NCBI GenBank assembly: GCA_021772515.1
Contig: JAJFLU010000045.1
Coordinates: forward strand, 1 to 64,000
DNA from: Opitutales bacterium
GTDB taxonomy: Bacteria; Verrucomicrobiota; Verrucomicrobiia; Opitutales; UBA2987
DNA length: 64,000 bases
Reading direction: 5' to 3'
In this document: positions 38,027-62,374 of the stretch, piece after piece
Position numbering within the stretch: the stretch's first letter is position 1
Layout: each line of letters starts with the position of its first letter
The notes under the pieces: model-generated
The model's database searches: none
What the model was told of the DNA's origin: nothing
Seen by the model: the letters and a program-made list of their open reading frames with translations, nothing else
Translations under genes and position numbers: made by a program

Positions 38027-38644
38027 TCACTGGATGGTTTTCAACAGGTCGTCTGGTGATAGAGTTACTGAGTATTCTCCTTCCGATTTTTCTTCTTTGG
38101 CAGACTCGGCATCCGATTCGTCGTTTTCCGCTTCCTGAAGCATACTTTGCAGGAAATCCCCGGCGTTCAAATCCACGGCTTCCTCTGAACCGGACATATC
38201 GAGGATTTGGGCGATTTCCTCATCTGTGGGCTCATCGGGATCATCACTAGCGGCGGCTGCTGAAGTAGCCGTAGCCGACTCGGTACCATAGAGGGCTTTG
38301 AAATTTTGGTAAGATTTGTATGCCTCGATGGCCAAATCTCCCGAGTCTTCCATGAGAAAAAATAAATTTTCCGATCGGTCGTTTTGATAGTTGAACATTT
38401 GCCCTTTGAGGACCGTTTTTTTGCCGGGCCCGGATAGTTCGTAAATCTCGACCCTGGCCAGCAATTCCTCATCGGCTTCGGTGTAGATACCGATCCGAGC
38501 CTTTTTTTTGCGGAAATTGAGGAATCGTTTAACAAAGGTTCCGGCCAAATCGGGCAATTCGTCATTCTCCAGATCCTGTCTGAGGCATTCCTCGAACTTT
38601 TCAATGAAATGCAGCGGGGATACTTTTACGGTGGCGTTAATCAT
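38027..38644 (-). CDS. Hypothetical protein, acidic C-terminus
   Basis: Coherent 205 aa ORF on the expected strand. Confidence 0.7.
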   Translation of the reverse strand: MINATVKVSPLHFIEKFEECLRQDLENDELPDLAGTFVKRFLNFRKKKARIGIYTEADEELLARVEIYELSGPGKKTVLKGQMFNYQNDRSENLFFLMEDSGDLAIEAYKSYQNFKALYGTESATATSAAAASDDPDEPTDEEIAQILDMSGSEEAVDLNAGDFLQSMLQEAENDESDAESAKEEKSEGEYSVTLSPDDLLKTIQ

Positions 38645-38746
38645 CTCCCTATGAATTTCGGAAGATTTCCCCAGTTTTTAAGCGCTACCGTTCCGAAACT
38701 CTCGATAATCGTAAATATCCGATCGGTTATCAGGTCGGATTTGCTG

Positions 38747-39160
38747 CTAAAATACCGCTTTGTAAACGCGACCGTCGTTGGTTCTCGCTTCGCCGTGACC
38801 GCCACCCCAAAGCCAATTGTAATCGGCCACAACCTCCATCACCAGATGCGATTTTGGGTCCTCGAGGAGCGAATACACATTGCCTTGCCCATCGATGCTG
38901 ACGGACGGAAAAACACCCACCCGTGTCCCCCCGCGTCCGCCCAACCCGACACCCGTCGTGATGCGAAATCTCGCATGGCTCATTTTGGTGAATTTGCCCG
39001 TTAAAATTTCGCCATCCTCCAGGTAAATCCGGATCTCCCTTTTGCCCGTGTCCCAGAATCCCTCCGCTCTGGCCCCCGATTTAAATTCGACCAATTGCAT
39101 ATCCCTCATGCAGCCGGAAAGCAGGAGAAGGGCGGGTAGGAATATAAGGAATCGTTTCAT
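38747..39160 (-). CDS. Hypothetical lipoprotein
   Basis: MKRFLIFLPALLLLSGCM lipobox; start at 39160. Confidence 0.75.
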   Translation of the reverse strand: MKRFLIFLPALLLLSGCMRDMQLVEFKSGARAEGFWDTGKREIRIYLEDGEILTGKFTKMSHARFRITTGVGLGGRGGTRVGVFPSVSIDGQGNVYSLLEDPKSHLVMEVVADYNWLWGGGHGEARTNDGRVYKAVF

Positions 39161-39314
39161 GGTGTTGATAAATATTGTTGAGGTGACTTTGACCACGCCT
39201 ATAAACCGCAGCCTCTGGGCAATGGTTTCGATATTTCCGGTTTTAATAGCATTTTGTTGCCGTGGAGAGCAATATTTTTCCGTAATTTTACAAAGGTAAT
39301 TCCGCCAATGAAAG

Positions 39315-39380: not shown

Positions 39381-40355
39381 TCAGACGGCAGAGACGGTCA
39401 GTTTGCGAATTCCCAACGAGGAGGTGATCACTACATTGCTGTAATGCTCCACGGTGATGTCGGTGAATTTACTGTGATCCTCGACGAAGACCCGAAAGAG
39501 CCCGTCTTCGGCGGGGGTTACAAACCGCTTGATATTGGAGGGCTCATCCTTCATCTGCCCATCGAGCGCATAGTAAAGGAAGACCTGGTCGCCCAGAATC
39601 TTGCTTTTGGCGCTGGAGGAGGACTGGTAGCGGGCGCTCACAATTTTCACTCCGTCGATAAACAGCTTGCGGGCCAGTTCCTCTTGGGTGAGTCCTGCCA
39701 GGCGGAAAGCCCCGGCATTGTTTTGCGCATCATAGGCATCGGCCCGCAAGTCCCACGCGCCCTCTCCGTAGAGCGCTCGATTGGGGCGAATCCCGCTCGC
39801 GTTGGTTGCCAAAACGAGGGAATTTCGCACATCGGAATCGGGGTTAACGGTGCCATCCCAGACCTTGGCCAGATTGGTGTCCGCGTCGTCGAGAGCCGTG
39901 ATTGCCCGGCGCACCTCGTTGCGGAGGAGGCGCTGCAACAGAAGCTGCACATAGCGCTCCTGCCATTCGCTGCCGACCTCTTCATCGTGGTCCACCCGGA
40001 TGGTGAGACCCTTGTTCAAGGTCTTTTCGTTCACCGTTTCGCCCGTGTATTCGACCCTCTTGAAGGCCGAACCGATGGCCCGAAGGTCATCCGATTCGGA
40101 CAAAAAGGCTTCCGAGTTGACGGCCCTTCTAAACTCGAAACGCCGACCCACCATGACCGGCGGGGCGATGAAATCGAGCAGTTCGCGGAGTTTTTCAGGA
40201 TCCTGCCAACCCACCGTGAAGGTGGTCAGCGGTTCCGACAGGTGAGCGGCGTTGAAGCGGCTTTCATTGGCCGCGCAGACGATTCCCGGAGCTTGCAGAC
40301 CGTCATCGACAGCCAGCGGCATTGTGGGGAAGTTTTGATTGATAGTTGTTTTCAT
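39381..40355 (-). CDS. Phage major capsid protein (Mu-like/HK97-type head)
   Basis: 324 aa with major-capsid-like composition and context; VGRRFEFRRAVNSEAFLSESDDLRAIGSAFKRVEYTG...LRNEVRRAITALDDA. Confidence 0.75.
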   Translation of the reverse strand: MKTTINQNFPTMPLAVDDGLQAPGIVCAANESRFNAAHLSEPLTTFTVGWQDPEKLRELLDFIAPPVMVGRRFEFRRAVNSEAFLSESDDLRAIGSAFKRVEYTGETVNEKTLNKGLTIRVDHDEEVGSEWQERYVQLLLQRLLRNEVRRAITALDDADTNLAKVWDGTVNPDSDVRNSLVLATNASGIRPNRALYGEGAWDLRADAYDAQNNAGAFRLAGLTQEELARKLFIDGVKIVSARYQSSSSAKSKILGDQVFLYYALDGQMKDEPSNIKRFVTPAEDGLFRVFVEDHSKFTDITVEHYSNVVITSSLGIRKLTVSAV

Positions 40356-40424
40356 AAAACAGGTTCTCTTTTCTTGGTATTTTTTGTTGATATTAATGTG
40401 TTTTGTTGATGGCTCAGGCTCGTA

Positions 40425-41093
40425 TTAGAGAACCTTGACCAGAGAGGGTTCGGACAATGCCGACGCCAGGGCGCGAACATCGTCGGCGAGTTCCTCGGAT
40501 TTATCCCGCAGGGCCTGCACCTCGGTTTGGCTGTAGGTGGCGCCGATGGTCAGCCCGCCGATCTCGGCATTGGTATTGCCGAGGGTGGCGATAACCACCG
40601 TGCGGGTGGGGGCCTGCGGCTCGATCTCGATGACCTCGCCATCGGCACCGGCAGCCGTCAAGGCCCGCCCCACCAGGTAGTAGGTGCCCGCTGCGGCTGG
40701 TTCGTTCTGGACCTTTCCCGAAGCCGCCGTGAATACCGATTCGCCCACCGCGATGGCCTCGCTGGCAACCGCTTTTTGGGTATTGGCGGAAGGGCTCAGC
40801 AGGTTCACGTTGACGGAGTCTTCGATCGCCTCGGCCTCATCAGTAGCCAGCCCGAGCGGCCGGTCGCCCACGCCGCAGACGGCGATATGGTCGGCATCGC
40901 TGCCGATTTTCACCATCAGGAAGCGGGTGCTTTGGATGGCGTCGGCCTTTTTGCTCAGGCTGCCCTCATGGGTGCCCTCGGCCACGTTTGAGAAGCTCGG
41001 TAAAGAAGCCTCGTCAGATTTCAGTTTTGATAAAACCACCCATGCGGCCAGCGCCAGGGCGAGTATCGTGATTGTCAGTAGTATTGTCGTCAT
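40425..41093 (-). CDS. Capsid cement/decoration-like protein (DUF2190-like) with N-terminal TM segment
   Basis: VGDRPLGLATDEAEAIEDSVNVNLLSPSANTQKAVASEAIAVGESVFTAASGKV...GTYYLVGRALTAAGADGEVIEIEP; N-terminus MTTILLTITILALALAAWVVLSKLK. Confidence 0.7.
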   Translation of the reverse strand: MTTILLTITILALALAAWVVLSKLKSDEASLPSFSNVAEGTHEGSLSKKADAIQSTRFLMVKIGSDADHIAVCGVGDRPLGLATDEAEAIEDSVNVNLLSPSANTQKAVASEAIAVGESVFTAASGKVQNEPAAAGTYYLVGRALTAAGADGEVIEIEPQAPTRTVVIATLGNTNAEIGGLTIGATYSQTEVQALRDKSEELADDVRALASALSEPSLVKVL

Positions 41094-41138
41094 TTTTATT
41101 TATATTTCTGATTTAGTGTTAATGGAAAATGTTGATGA

Positions 41139-42395
41139 TTACCGTGTCCGATCGGGGTTAGGTTCCGACAGACTCTCGAAAAGATCACGGCGGTCTTTTT
41201 TGGCGTTTGACCAAGCGGTCGTGAAATCCTCGCCGGTGCGGTCCATGCGGTCGTTGACCACCTCCAGGAAGCGTCGTTGGCCGCTCGTGCCGAAATGATT
41301 TCCGGCCAGCTCTGCGGTGCAGCTTCGGGTGTTGAGGAGGGGCCGGGCGTTGGCCAGGGTTTCCAGCGATTCGCTGAAGTTCTCGCGCAATTCGCTTTCC
41401 CAATTCGCCTTTTCGGAAGGGCGAATGCGGGCCTCCCTGATGGCCTCGTCGAGGATCATTTCGATTCGCGCTGTCCTCTCGTTGGCCAGCGAAACCTCGG
41501 TTTCGGCGAGAGCTTTTTCGGCCTCGCTCGCCAGTTGATGAGACCGGTCGGCCTCCTGCCGCAAGGTTTCGATTTCGTTGGCGGCGGGCGTGGCGGACTC
41601 ATTCCACAGGCGGCTATCTTCGAGCAGGGATTCCAGCGATTGCAGGATTTCCTCCTCCGATGCCTCGTTTTGCAGGCCCAGTTTGTCGGTAATTTTCTCG
41701 ATCATAATATTCTCTTTGTCTTGGTGGTTAACAGGTTGATTTTGGTTTTGATGTTGAGGATTGGCGGTGGGCCGCTGCGGGATTTCCGCAATCGGATCGC
41801 CGGGAATATTCGGGCGGTTGGTCAAACCCACCGAAAGCAGTTTGACCGGTTGGAAAACCCCATTGCCCACCGGCTTCATGGCCCAGCGGGGTGACAGGTA
41901 TTTGTAGAAAGCATTGTTCAGCACCTCCTCACCGGCATCGCTCCAGCGCGGCATCGCCCACAGACCATCCTCGCGCTCCTCAAGGGCGTGAATCCAGGCA
42001 TAGGCCCGCGTGTCCTGATGGCCCGGCTGACGGGCAAAGGCGGGGTCATCGGGGTGCCCGATATAGACCGGAATACCTCCAAATTTACGAGCAAGGCGGC
42101 CCCGCAGGGAGTTGAAATACCGAACCATTTCGCGGGCCGACGACTGCGTGAACCGCTGCCGCCCCTTCGCGTGGGGATGCGTTCCATAAGTCGCCAAACG
42201 CACCCACTCGCCCCCCTCTGCCGCTGCCGAAGTTTCGGTTGGCACGCCCATAGCCGAGACGGCTTCATGTTGTGTATTACTTGATATTGATAGTTTATTC
42301 ATAGCATAAATATAGTTAAAATAATTCAAGAAAATCTTCCTCCTCCTCTTCCTCTCCGTCTTCCTCCCTCCGGTTAACTCATTCCTCGTCCTCAC
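41139..42395 (-). CDS. Mu gpI-like phage prohead protease/scaffold
   Basis: GIPVYIGHPDD...DTRAYAWIHALEEREDGLWAMPRWSDAGEEVLNNAFYKYLSPRWAMKPVGNGVFQPVKLLSVGLTNRPNIPG; coiled-coil C-terminal half. Confidence 0.8.
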   Translation of the reverse strand: MRTRNELTGGRKTERKRRRKIFLNYFNYIYAMNKLSISSNTQHEAVSAMGVPTETSAAAEGGEWVRLATYGTHPHAKGRQRFTQSSAREMVRYFNSLRGRLARKFGGIPVYIGHPDDPAFARQPGHQDTRAYAWIHALEEREDGLWAMPRWSDAGEEVLNNAFYKYLSPRWAMKPVGNGVFQPVKLLSVGLTNRPNIPGDPIAEIPQRPTANPQHQNQNQPVNHQDKENIMIEKITDKLGLQNEASEEEILQSLESLLEDSRLWNESATPAANEIETLRQEADRSHQLASEAEKALAETEVSLANERTARIEMILDEAIREARIRPSEKANWESELRENFSESLETLANARPLLNTRSCTAELAGNHFGTSGQRRFLEVVNDRMDRTGEDFTTAWSNAKKDRRDLFESLSEPNPDRTR

Positions 42396-43596
42396 CCTTT
42401 TGCAGGATATTTTCTCCCTTCGTTGGAATCGGAATCCCGAAGCGGTCGAACAGGTGATTGAGGGGCACCGGCGCGCCCATCTCCCATAGTTCCTTGTAGA
42501 TTTTCAGATCCTGCATGATGTCCTGCGGGCTGGTCGTTTTGACTTTTACGAACGCCTTGCCATGCTCCACGCCGAACAGATGCCGGAGGACAAAGCGGTC
42601 CACATTCTTGTTCAGCGTCTCCGAAATCATGAGGGCGTCGTGGTGTTCCAGCAGCGCCGTTTCGCTTTTTTGCACACTGGCTCCGACGCCCCCCGAACTT
42701 CCTGAGAGCGTGCTCAAATCCGCCCCCCGCCAAAGTGCGATGAGGGCCTTGTCCATCCGCTCGACCAGTTTGGGGTAGGGGAGTTCACCGCTCCCGCGCA
42801 GGTCGATGGCCTCGATCTCTGTCCCCCGGTTCATGAGAGCATTAAACTCCGACCCAAAATCCTCCACCGCCGCCTTGGCCTGATTCCATTCGGGCGTCCC
42901 CGGCAGCGCATCCGTAACTCCCTTGACTCCCGGCATTCCGTTGCGCTCCGAGTAAATCAGCCAATCCCGCAGAGGCAGGTTTTTATACATGTAGGCCACG
43001 CTGCAAGCCTCCATCAGCCCCTCCCCAACCGTCACCAGCCAGGAACCTTCCTGCAGGTCGATTCCCTCTGTCGAGTTGCTCGATGGTAAAAACCGCAGCC
43101 GCCCCATGCGGTTCTCGAAAAACCACAGCGGCGCAAATCGAAAAGTCGCCGTTAACCGCCGGTTGCTCCCCGGTTCCCACACGATTTCGTGGAGGGCATA
43201 CCGCTTCCCCACCGCATCCATCATCTGCTCGATCAGAAGTGAAAATCCACCCTGCTGGTTTTGGTCGATTGCGCTCGTCGCGGTCATTTGATTATAGAAA
43301 AATTCGAGAGCCTCCCGCTGCTCCTCCGCCTCGGGCGAATCATCCACCGTGAGCACCTCCCAATTGAGCCGCGCGACCGCCTTTTTACGCTTCGAGGCGA
43401 CGCCGCGTATCACGTCATCGCGACGCTCGATGGCCTCCCACGTCGGGCCCACCCGCCGGAAATTTCCCGCCTGAAATTCATCGAGTTGGCGACTGAGAGT
43501 TTCAGGAGTGAGGGCGCGAATGGGGCTGAAGCGGGCCAGCCTGTCCGTGCTGATTCTCTCCGTGGTTATGGTGTTTTTGGTTTTTAGTGCTTCCAT
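42379..43596 (-). CDS. Mu gp29-like (DUF935) phage portal protein
   Basis: GGFSLLIEQMMDAVGKRYALHEIVWE...LRDWLIYSERNGMPGVKGV...ALIALWRGADLSTLSGSSGGVGASVQ. Confidence 0.85.
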   Translation of the reverse strand: MEALKTKNTITTERISTDRLARFSPIRALTPETLSRQLDEFQAGNFRRVGPTWEAIERRDDVIRGVASKRKKAVARLNWEVLTVDDSPEAEEQREALEFFYNQMTATSAIDQNQQGGFSLLIEQMMDAVGKRYALHEIVWEPGSNRRLTATFRFAPLWFFENRMGRLRFLPSSNSTEGIDLQEGSWLVTVGEGLMEACSVAYMYKNLPLRDWLIYSERNGMPGVKGVTDALPGTPEWNQAKAAVEDFGSEFNALMNRGTEIEAIDLRGSGELPYPKLVERMDKALIALWRGADLSTLSGSSGGVGASVQKSETALLEHHDALMISETLNKNVDRFVLRHLFGVEHGKAFVKVKTTSPQDIMQDLKIYKELWEMGAPVPLNHLFDRFGIPIPTKGENILQKGEDEE

Positions 43597-43631
43597 GATG
43601 TTTTTTGTGGTGTTTGATGTTAGGTTAAAAG

Positions 43632-45119
43632 TTAAAGTAAATTCCTGGTCCGGCGTTTGAGCGGAGCCACCGCCTCGAAATGTTGATTGGCGACCGGTTT
43701 GCGGCTCGCGTGGAGCGCCAACGCCAGGGCCCAGAACCGATCGCTATGCCCGTTTTTCCCCCGATCTGCGGTGAACCGGACATGCCCCGCCGCAGTCGTT
43801 TCCTTCTTGATCCCCCGCAGGTCGGAGCGAATGTATTTATCCGCCGGAATCCGCAGCAAACCGCTCTCGAAAGCCGTCCGCACCGGGTAGGCCAGCGTCT
43901 CCTTGATCGGTCCGGTGAAGTGGATCCCCTCCACCTTGTAACCCCCAAATCGCTCCGATGCCCGCTCCGCAAACTGCCGCCCCAACCCCGTTTGGTCGAT
44001 GCACGCCCGCCGCATCCCCGGCAATTCCAGCAGCCGGTTAAAAATCTCCTCCTGTCGGCGAAATGGCGTATTCTCCAGGCATTGCACCCGGCGGGTAAAA
44101 GCCACCCCCGAAACCACCTCGACGACCCAGAATACCGTCAGGTCGCGCACCCTCCCAATATCCACCCCAAGGTAGAGCGAATTGCGCGATTTTCCCAATT
44201 CCTCGTCAGTAAAGTCACCATTCTCCTCCGGCAAATACTCGCATGAGGCGATCAGATCGTAGGACAAAAATGCGGTCGTATCATCCGCCGGGTCGCAGAG
44301 GTATTCCTGCCGCCAGCTCTCCTCGTCTGCGCAGCCGTTTCGCACGAATTGCAAATACTCGTCGCGATCCAGCTCCTTGCGCGGGTCGTCCTCGCCCAGC
44401 TTGGCTTGAATCTTCTCCAGCAAACCCTCCTCGACCGCATCCACAACCGTCACCCGATGGAGGGAAATATCCATCCGGTTGCCCTTATTCCGAGCCTCCT
44501 CGACCAGTGAATTGAAAAAATTATCGCTCCCCCGGTGGGTCGAGATGATCTCCAGACCGCCCCCCCAGGTGATCCCCGGATAGGACACCGCATAGAGCTT
44601 TCGCGGATCGGGATGCAGCGCGAACTCATCCAGCACCCGATGGCCCCGCTTTCCGGCCTGCGCGTCCGGGTTTGACGAAAGCGAATGAATGCGCCTCCCG
44701 TTGGCCAAATGCAAAACTCCCGAAGCGCTCCGCCCCGCCGTATCCAGAACGCGCTCCCGACGCTCGCGGGCCGCCATATTGAGGATTTTGGCAAACGCCC
44801 GGCAATCCTCCAGAAACAACTTCGCCTGCACCGCATCCCGCGAACTGACCCAGGCATCCAGCCGCAAATCCGGCCTCGCCTGCCGCCGCACGACCGAATA
44901 AGCGGTAGCCCAGGAAATACCGATCTGCCGACTCTTCTCCATGATCTTGAGCCGCGAATCATCCTCGATCCACCGCCGCTGATAAGGCAGAAAAAAAGCC
45001 CCAGCCCCAGCCTCAGCCGCCGCCGTCCCCTTATCCGTCTTAGACTGTATTTTAACATTCATATTCAAAAAAGTTAATTCTCCTCTCCCTCTTCGTCTTC
45101 CTCTTCGTCCTCTCCCCAT
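43632..45119 (-). CDS. Mu gp28-like terminase large subunit
   Basis: YQRRWIEDDSRLKIMEKSRQIGISWATAYSVVRR (Walker A-like), VLDEFALH, LYLGVDIGRVRDLTVFWVVE nuclease motif. Confidence 0.88.
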   Translation of the reverse strand: MGRGRRGRRRGRGELTFLNMNVKIQSKTDKGTAAAEAGAGAFFLPYQRRWIEDDSRLKIMEKSRQIGISWATAYSVVRRQARPDLRLDAWVSSRDAVQAKLFLEDCRAFAKILNMAARERRERVLDTAGRSASGVLHLANGRRIHSLSSNPDAQAGKRGHRVLDEFALHPDPRKLYAVSYPGITWGGGLEIISTHRGSDNFFNSLVEEARNKGNRMDISLHRVTVVDAVEEGLLEKIQAKLGEDDPRKELDRDEYLQFVRNGCADEESWRQEYLCDPADDTTAFLSYDLIASCEYLPEENGDFTDEELGKSRNSLYLGVDIGRVRDLTVFWVVEVVSGVAFTRRVQCLENTPFRRQEEIFNRLLELPGMRRACIDQTGLGRQFAERASERFGGYKVEGIHFTGPIKETLAYPVRTAFESGLLRIPADKYIRSDLRGIKKETTAAGHVRFTADRGKNGHSDRFWALALALHASRKPVANQHFEAVAPLKRRTRNLL

Positions 45120-45186
45120 CCGTGTTTATCCGTGTAATCCGGGGTTAAAAATCCTTCTTCATCCCGCATCCAGCATCCAGCATTTC
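45077..45186 (-). repeat. Composite dispersed repeat (GGATGC tract / TTAACC-CGGATTACACGGATAAACACGGATGG core / GAAGAC-rich tract)
   Basis: Reverse complement matches module order at 61945-62060 and 47970-48080. Confidence 0.75.
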
Positions 45187-45195
45187 CCTTCCCCC

Positions 45196-45651
45196 TCATA
45201 ACAAATTCAACTCCTCCTCGATCTCCCTCAAAGTCTCCTCGCTCAGACCCCCGCCGGTTGATAACGAACGGGCGATTTTCACACTCTCCTTGAGCTGCCG
45301 CTTTTTCTCCTCCCACTCCTCCAGCTTACGCTCCAGATCCGTCGTCTTCAGTTCGAGAGCCTTCCGCTGATTGGTGCTTCCATACAGTTTCTGCACAATG
45401 CTCGAAACCTGCACCAAATCCTCATCGCGCCCCCCATTCAAAAGCCGGTCAAAAAGCTCATTCCAAACGATCGTCAAAGTCGCCCGCGAAACATCATCAT
45501 CCGCCTCGCAAGCCTTGATCACCTCCCGCGCCTTATCACTCGACGAAATAATCCGCCGCAAATACCGCTGAAAAGCCGTCAAAGGAGCCTCCGCAGATTT
45601 GGAAGCAGCGCCACCGCCACTACCAGTCGTAGATTTCAGAGAAATGCTCAT
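45196..45651 (-). CDS. Terminase small subunit-like (Mu gp27-like position)
   Basis: Coiled-coil C-terminus, immediately upstream of the terminase large subunit, same strand. Confidence 0.6.
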   Translation of the reverse strand: MSISLKSTTGSGGGAASKSAEAPLTAFQRYLRRIISSSDKAREVIKACEADDDVSRATLTIVWNELFDRLLNGGRDEDLVQVSSIVQKLYGSTNQRKALELKTTDLERKLEEWEEKKRQLKESVKIARSLSTGGGLSEETLREIEEELNLL

Positions 45652-45895
45652 AAAACCACTCCTCCCGTCACGCTGGAAATCAAACTATTACGAAGTGTAT
45701 TTACGTTCACTATTAATAGGGCAAAAAAAACGAAGTTATTTAAAAATAGAAAAAAAGCGGTCATAATATTTCATAATTAATTGGTTAATAAATGGTTACA
45801 GAGTTATTCGGGTTAAATTAAGTAATTGGAAATGATATCGACACCACCGCACGGCAATCCACCGCGCAGCAGCCCCTACATTATACCAAAAAAAT

Positions 45896-45945
45896 TCATT
45901 CCCACAATGACTGCGTTGGCTGCGTTGGCTGCGTTCGCTAAAAAA
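45896..45945 (-). repeat. GCAGCCAAC 9-mer tandem repeat element, copy A
   Basis: + strand acaatgactgcgttggctgcgttggctgcgttcgct; same unit and end (cgcagtcattg-ggg) at 62201-62250. Confidence 0.75.
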
Positions 45946-46098
45946 CTCAAAATTAATAATTATTATTAAGAAAAAACCCCAAAAAACCCAAAAAACCACC
46001 CCCAAACCCACCAAAATCCAAAAATTTTCCTCCATTACTCCCCACATGCCAAAATTTCACATTGAACATGGGCTCCGGTTGCCTTTTGTTACCCTTAG

Positions 46099-62060: not shown

Positions 62061-62200
62061 ACTTGATGGGGATGGAAAGCGGGGTTTTTTTTTGAAATTA
62101 TTGATTTTGAAGTGTTTTTGGGGGGAAATTTCTTGGTTTTTGATGGGTTTTGGTGTGACAGAATGTCTCGGTTTGGGTGTTTTTGGCGTTTTTTATAGTC

Positions 62201-62250
62201 CGCGCAGCCAGCGCAGCCAACGCAGCACGCGCAGCCAACGCAGTCATTGC
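62201..62250 (+). repeat. GCAGCCAAC 9-mer tandem repeat element, copy B
   Basis: cgcgcagccagcgcagccaacgcagcacgcgcagccaacgcagtcattgcggg; inverted copy at 45896-45945. Confidence 0.8.
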
Positions 62251-62374
62251 GGGTTTTTTAATTATGCTGTATAGTGTGGATCGAATCTGAAAATAGTCCG
62301 AATGCGAGGCGGTTGGCCGAGGCTTGACCGACGGAGCGGCGGGTTATTGTCTAAATAATTGCAATCAACCTATT

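Follow-up and report, generated by a model that had tools for sequence, protein, structure and literature searches.

A membrane-strength N-terminal arm on the cement protein of a Mu-type head cluster in Opitutales

Beta-tulip decoration proteins bind the capsid through their N-terminus, the 'Dec-arm' (PMC7602432), and the HFTV1 and gp8.5 proteins have been located on the capsid exterior (PMC12494034, PMC6542822). In T4, the prohead begins on a membrane-bound portal at the inner membrane and is freed after maturation (PMC9958956). Phage heads that are kept by bacterial hosts are known from gene transfer agents (GTAs), for which we took the genome-based criteria of homology to caudoviricete structural proteins, full endogenisation, often at several loci, and mostly vertical inheritance with host co-diversification (PMC9662315). 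The remaining criteria of that scheme concern the particles, which contain and deliver random host DNA and do not package their own genome in full. In one verrucomicrobial MAG, genes for Mu-like proteins and terminases have been interpreted as a degraded prophage (PMC6920513). A full-text literature search on gene transfer agents returned no account of a GTA-like element in Verrucomicrobia among the matches listed.

The window, a stretch of 64,000 nucleotides from an Opitutales bacterium, contains a six-gene cassette on the minus strand (39381-45651). It comprises a Mu Gp27-like small terminase (45196-45651; phrog_426 and PF11985, the latter at 1.2e-5, slightly below its cut-off), a large terminase (43632-45119, true start likely 45062; PF17289 and PF03237), a Mu-type portal (42379-43596; PF06074, 3e-63), a Mu-like head protease/scaffold (41139-42395, true start likely near 42302; PF10123, 3.5e-26), a cement or decoration protein (40425-41093) and the major capsid protein (39381-40355; phrog_1005, 8e-8, and placement in the capsid tree). 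A complete Mu-like phage would carry transposition and tail genes with its head genes; this cassette is instead flanked on both sides by chromosomal genes that include lexA, dihydrofolate reductase and thymidylate synthase, as judged by sequence. Two of the flank genes (38027-39196, minus strand) are kept beside the cassette in a sister species, Opitutales OFTM84 (locus L090; capsid 87% identical), with 59-79% identity. The P-loop of the large terminase reads KSRQIGIS, without the usual GK and with its lysine at the front, as in lambda-type terminases. Low-complexity spacers lie among the head genes and at a second locus of the same genome (window 45074-45169, 45796-46047 and 62092-62274; L122:12248-12415); their translations (DEEGEED..., TDYTDKHGW-like, RSQRSQRSHCG) give the impression of a dispersed repeat that has spread into these gaps.

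The cement gene encodes 222 residues from an ATG at 41091-41093 and begins MTTILLTITILALALAAWVVLSKLKSDE... An initial sequence-only reading had given this N-terminus and these coordinates, and had described a single hydrophobic helix followed by a DUF2190-like domain; our analysis agrees on each point, with the gene on the minus strand. The protein matches PF09956 (Phage_cement_2, formerly DUF2190) over residues 71-157 with 30.1 bits (E 6.5e-7), above the curated cut-off of 24, and its gene occupies the position between the head protease and the major capsid protein that is expected of this family. It also matches phrog_673 (head and packaging) at 2e-11. The single-chain AlphaFold model, built from 65 sequences with a mean pLDDT of 91, consists of an N-terminal helix (residues 2-25, 41019-41090; pLDDT 92-96 over the first 20 residues), a linker of low model confidence with a conserved FSNVAEGTH motif at its end (residues 26-44, 40962-41018), a beta-rich decoration domain (residues 45-168, 40590-40961) and a C-terminal helix (residues 189-213, 40455-40529). 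The comparison with decoration proteins that the initial reading had proposed gave matches: the best Foldseek hits of the monomer were the phi29 head fibre base gp8.5, the HFTV1 capsid-stabilising protein and the Borrelia BB1 and TW1 decoration proteins (6qyy, E 2.9e-5, target TM 0.73; 8qsy, E 3.1e-5, target TM 0.69), and a profile search also matched gp8.5 (6qyy, E 7.5e-5). The monomer model thus has the beta-tulip fold of the gp8.5 base, HFTV1 and TW1 gp56, with a target TM of about 0.7 for the best of them. On the strength of this model, the gene could well encode a trimer-type cement that grips a Mu-like head from outside; beta-tulip decoration proteins sit as trimers at (quasi-)threefold capsid sites, and trimerisation and shell location are here drawn from the fold. 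Searching 50,697 phage records with the cement by tblastn yielded nothing, and no named phage with this cement was found.

The N-terminal helix of the window protein reaches a Kyte-Doolittle mean of 2.57 over 19 residues (KD19) and a Wimley-White octanol value of -11.1 kcal/mol, both well within the transmembrane range, and so has the run of about 20 hydrophobic residues above membrane thresholds that characterises a single-pass membrane protein. We gathered relatives from whole genomes, 56 genome contigs (capsid profile) and 25 IMG/VR contigs (cement profile), called their genes with a purpose-written script and compared gene orders. The genomes sampled are mostly drafts or MAGs; the window genome is 93.8% complete in 63 contigs. 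An alignment of all 13 cement proteins (A1) was too diverse for a degenerate-pattern scan, so we turned to the capsid (A3) and to a set of more closely related cements (A4). Arm starts in relatives were set by rule as the first ATG within about 62 residues, and arms were scored as of transmembrane strength at the usual line of KD19 >= 1.6. This line was reached by 26 of 95 cement arms from related loci, compared to 4 of about 560 N-termini of other virion proteins from the same loci, which indicates that the helix is not an accident of composition; among capsid and connector N-termini there was no case at all (0/90 and 0/77). Many relatives have arms of 5-15 residues without a helix, so the fold does not need the arm. 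The distant cement matches L034-L036 are likewise without such a helix.

The charges around the helix are strongly asymmetric. Across 20 non-redundant helix-type arms, K and R residues total 50 after the helix and 7 before it, with more on the C-side in 17 arms, equal numbers in two and fewer in one; the window helix is preceded by no charge and followed by K/R. Under the positive-inside rule, such a pattern predicts an N-out/C-in orientation with a cytoplasmic cement domain. Some relatives have a short basic amphipathic arm in place of the helix (MIRFIKKLFHARPVF...), and the non-helix arms of at least 15 residues, which are mostly amphipathic, carry a net charge of 0 to +10 that is never negative; arms of this type are able to bind membrane surfaces. 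Contact of the arm with the membrane is plausible given this hydrophobicity and charge pattern. We propose that the helix would insert N-out/C-in into the cytoplasmic membrane and that the cement domain would then face the cytoplasm, where capsids are built. The cement would thereby be held at the membrane, as the site where the shell is built and stabilised, and the short basic amphipathic arms of relatives would bind the membrane surface. By analogy with T4, we see roughly an even chance that the arm serves assembly at the cytoplasmic membrane.

The main alternative to a role in membrane assembly is a hydrophobic capsid clamp. The arm would then be a long hydrophobic Dec-arm, acting as a clamp on the capsid or as a three-helix plug beneath the cement trimer, and would never be at the membrane. 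Known beta-tulip decoration proteins do bind the capsid with their N-terminal arms (PMC7602432), the nearest folds are those of phi29 gp8.5 and HFTV1, and the length and character of the arm vary in a clamp-like manner. However, the octanol values of the arms, from about -5 to -18 kcal/mol over 19 residues, lie in the range of membrane helices, and the one-sided charge found in 17 of 20 arms is what membrane topology predicts. We regard the clamp as possible but tentative.

The distribution of the arm bears on where it came from. We labelled loci from stretches of up to about 20 kb as phage-like, with minor head and tail genes downstream, or as host-borne like the window cassette, where the portal has about 400 residues and tail genes are few or absent. 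With labels drawn from stretches of that size, helix-type arms were found in 20 of 39 phage-like loci and in 4 of 42 host-borne loci (Fisher p 6e-5, kinship ignored). Two closed genomes carry a helix-bearing cement in a complete Mu-like prophage: G018 has a transposase (phrog_310), a transposition protein (phrog_296), Gam (PF07352), a tape measure and a tail fibre, and G100 has Gam, a tape measure and a tail fibre. Among viral contigs with a helix-type cement arm, whose tail genes were judged from the retrieved stretch alone, L101 encodes a tape measure and L113 an endolysin. PHROGs and Pfam put names to few of the tail genes in these phages, and the tape-measure-like proteins of L095, L032 and L081 gave no tape-measure match in either. 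In another genome (G257:C1; L027 and L028), the head region of a Mu-like prophage occurs in two near-identical copies, both with the same helix-bearing cement. On the capsid tree, host-borne loci come out as almost a single clade (4 changes) within the phage loci, and the helix was gained or lost in about 8 changes. The window, L090, L039 and L040 make up a subgroup with support 82 in which all four members have helix-type arms. Since host-borne loci nest among phage loci and complete phages have helix-type arms, the arm is most simply read from these sequences as an inherited phage trait. Under our proposal, it would be a phage assembly trait kept by the window's lineage of a domesticated cassette and not one gained to retain particles.

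These results speak against the interpretation first placed on the helix, namely that it anchors completed particles to the cell membrane, as an adaptation to a repurposed role in which the particle stays in the cell. That the cassette is host-kept and dispersed, and that no hub gene was found in the window genome, would fit such a tether. But the same helix occurs in complete phages (G018 and G100), the very finding that had been named in advance as counting against a tether, and in the viral contigs L101 and L113. Helices were expected to accompany tail-less cassettes, and the opposite was observed, since helices are rarer among host-borne cassettes (4/42) than among phages (20/39). In other reduced lineages, Cerasicoccus for example, the arms are amphipathic instead. 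A tether of this kind is accordingly very unlikely.

A signal peptide that exports the cement domain is a highly improbable explanation of the arm. A few arms do look signal-like (L032, ...PVLAAGF), but most helix-type arms have several basic residues following the helix and none preceding it, opposite to the arrangement in a signal peptide. In addition, a cement has to meet capsids in the cytoplasm. We rejected this candidate on the charge pattern of the helix-type arms.

Whether the host keeps the cassette is a separate matter from the helix. Comparing the window to L090, where the two shared flank genes identify the cassettes as the same locus, we obtained dN/dS values of 0.06 for the capsid, 0.07 for the portal, 0.11 for the cement, 0.13 for the large terminase and 0.16 for the protease, at dS of 0.8-1.3. 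The head genes are homologous to caudoviricete structural proteins, and the cluster is fully endogenised and split over three loci of the window genome, on the window contig C40 and on C48 and C38. Contig C48 (L122, G000:C48:10036-13867) has intact connector, tail-completion-like and fibre-like genes, the only tail-related genes found on another contig of this genome, and C38 (L137, G000:C38:46388-47832) has an intact holin-like gene, its neighbour and a small winged-helix-like gene, in an order that matches single-locus relatives. In the L090 genome, the connector likewise lies on another contig. In a comparison confined to 27 host-borne cassettes, 17 of 24 splits are common to the capsid tree and the RpoB tree of the hosts (chance expectation: mean 0.21, maximum 3 in 1000 shuffles), and capsid and RpoB distances are correlated (Mantel r 0.66; 0/5000 permutations), as expected of mostly vertical inheritance with host co-diversification. 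In gut Opitutales, the cluster adjoins the same galE-like and/or purH genes. Eight gut and rumen Opitutales loci (L053, L054, L057, L058, L062, L063, L067 and L069) retain connector, tail-completion-like, hub and other genes; most of them adjoin galE-like and/or purH, and in several the terminase genes lie apart from the rest.

The cluster has also been reduced to different extents. Sister lineages encode a protein of about 575 residues (L119:13754-15505 and its family) that has no useful PHROGs or Pfam match but adopts a baseplate hub fold, matching Mu gp44, VgrG and contractile injection systems with Foldseek E-values down to 3e-13. A tail-hub gene was not found in the window genome or in ten related genomes by a search that gave strong hits in three sister genomes. 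C. frondis and C. maritimus (L043 and L044) retain head and packaging genes, and no connector or hub homologue was found in their genomes. Four observations together support a cassette that is kept by its hosts: it is inherited vertically, it is under purifying selection, it is dispersed over three loci, and no hub gene was found. The repurposing proposed by the sequence-only reading is therefore supported, and its use of the helix as evidence for repurposing is not. We read the cassette as a GTA-like, Mu-type head cluster that is vertically inherited in Opitutales/Puniceicoccales and is split over three intact loci in the window genome. Since no tail hub was found in the window subgroup, GTA-like delivery of DNA by its particles appears doubtful.

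Alternatively, the cassette could be a decaying prophage remnant whose helix is now functionless. Tail, integration and lysis genes are not adjacent to it, and a precedent exists in a verrucomicrobial MAG whose Mu-like protein and terminase genes were put down to a degraded prophage (PMC6920513). However, all six ORFs are intact, dN/dS is 0.06-0.16 relative to L090 at dS of about 1, and the cassette co-diversifies with its hosts. Purifying selection and co-diversification led us to reject a degraded prophage as extremely improbable.

The comparison with L090 also shows that the arm is translated and kept. The sister species retains it as MTTIHLTIMLTVLALAAWAILKIKQ, from the same ATG, and between the two arms synonymous changes affect 15 of 27 sites relative to 17 of 75 nonsynonymous sites (p 0.003). 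Constraint is looser in the arm than in the domain, with pN/pS of 0.41 vs 0.13. Just two in-frame codons precede the ATG. A true start at the downstream GTG (V37), with the helix never made, is hardly conceivable and was rejected: this GTG precedes AEGTH, is kept in L090 and is preferred by the gene caller's coding score, but the arm is conserved at the protein level with this synonymous excess and recurs in many relatives with ATG starts. Judged by this conservation, the annotated ATG is the correct start, in line with the helix-inclusive start first assumed, and the GTG may be an extra one.

If the membrane-strength arm acts as proposed, an outer-shell protein would directly link capsid assembly to the bacterial membrane, for which the T4 portal is the citable precedent. 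The cluster matters more than the cement arm. Intact although dispersed, and tracking its hosts through an order of Verrucomicrobiota, this head-and-packaging cluster qualifies as a candidate new GTA lineage or other host-used capsid, and it is experimentally testable since cultured Cerasicoccus species carry it. A bolder and rather unlikely possibility is that Opitutales/Puniceicoccales share, across the order, a head-only particle passed on vertically (terminase, portal, capsid and cement, no tail hub). It would package DNA or other cargo, and through the cement arms its shell would be assembled or retained on the cytoplasmic side of the inner membrane, in effect a GTA-like particle without an injection tail.

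With the gene transfer agents RcGTA, BaGTA and BhGTA (viriforms), the window system has in common caudoviricete head genes, several chromosomal loci and host co-diversification; it differs in its Mu-type head, in the hub gene not found in the window subgroup and in being known from genes alone. With PF09956/DUF2190 cements, the window protein shares the domain and the place between protease and major capsid protein, and it departs from them in its transmembrane-strength N-terminal arm and in a C-terminal helix outside the Pfam match. The domain fold is common to the beta-tulip decoration proteins (phi29 gp8.5 base, TW1 gp56, HFTV1, phage 21 SHP and, according to a review, lambda gpD); the known ones have capsid-binding N-terminal arms, and we found none described with a membrane-type helix. 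Finally, the heads of the Mu-like prophages G018 and G100 of Verrucomicrobiota, which unlike the window have transposition-module genes and complete tail genes nearby, share with it the order terminases-portal-protease-cement-capsid-connector and a helix-type arm.
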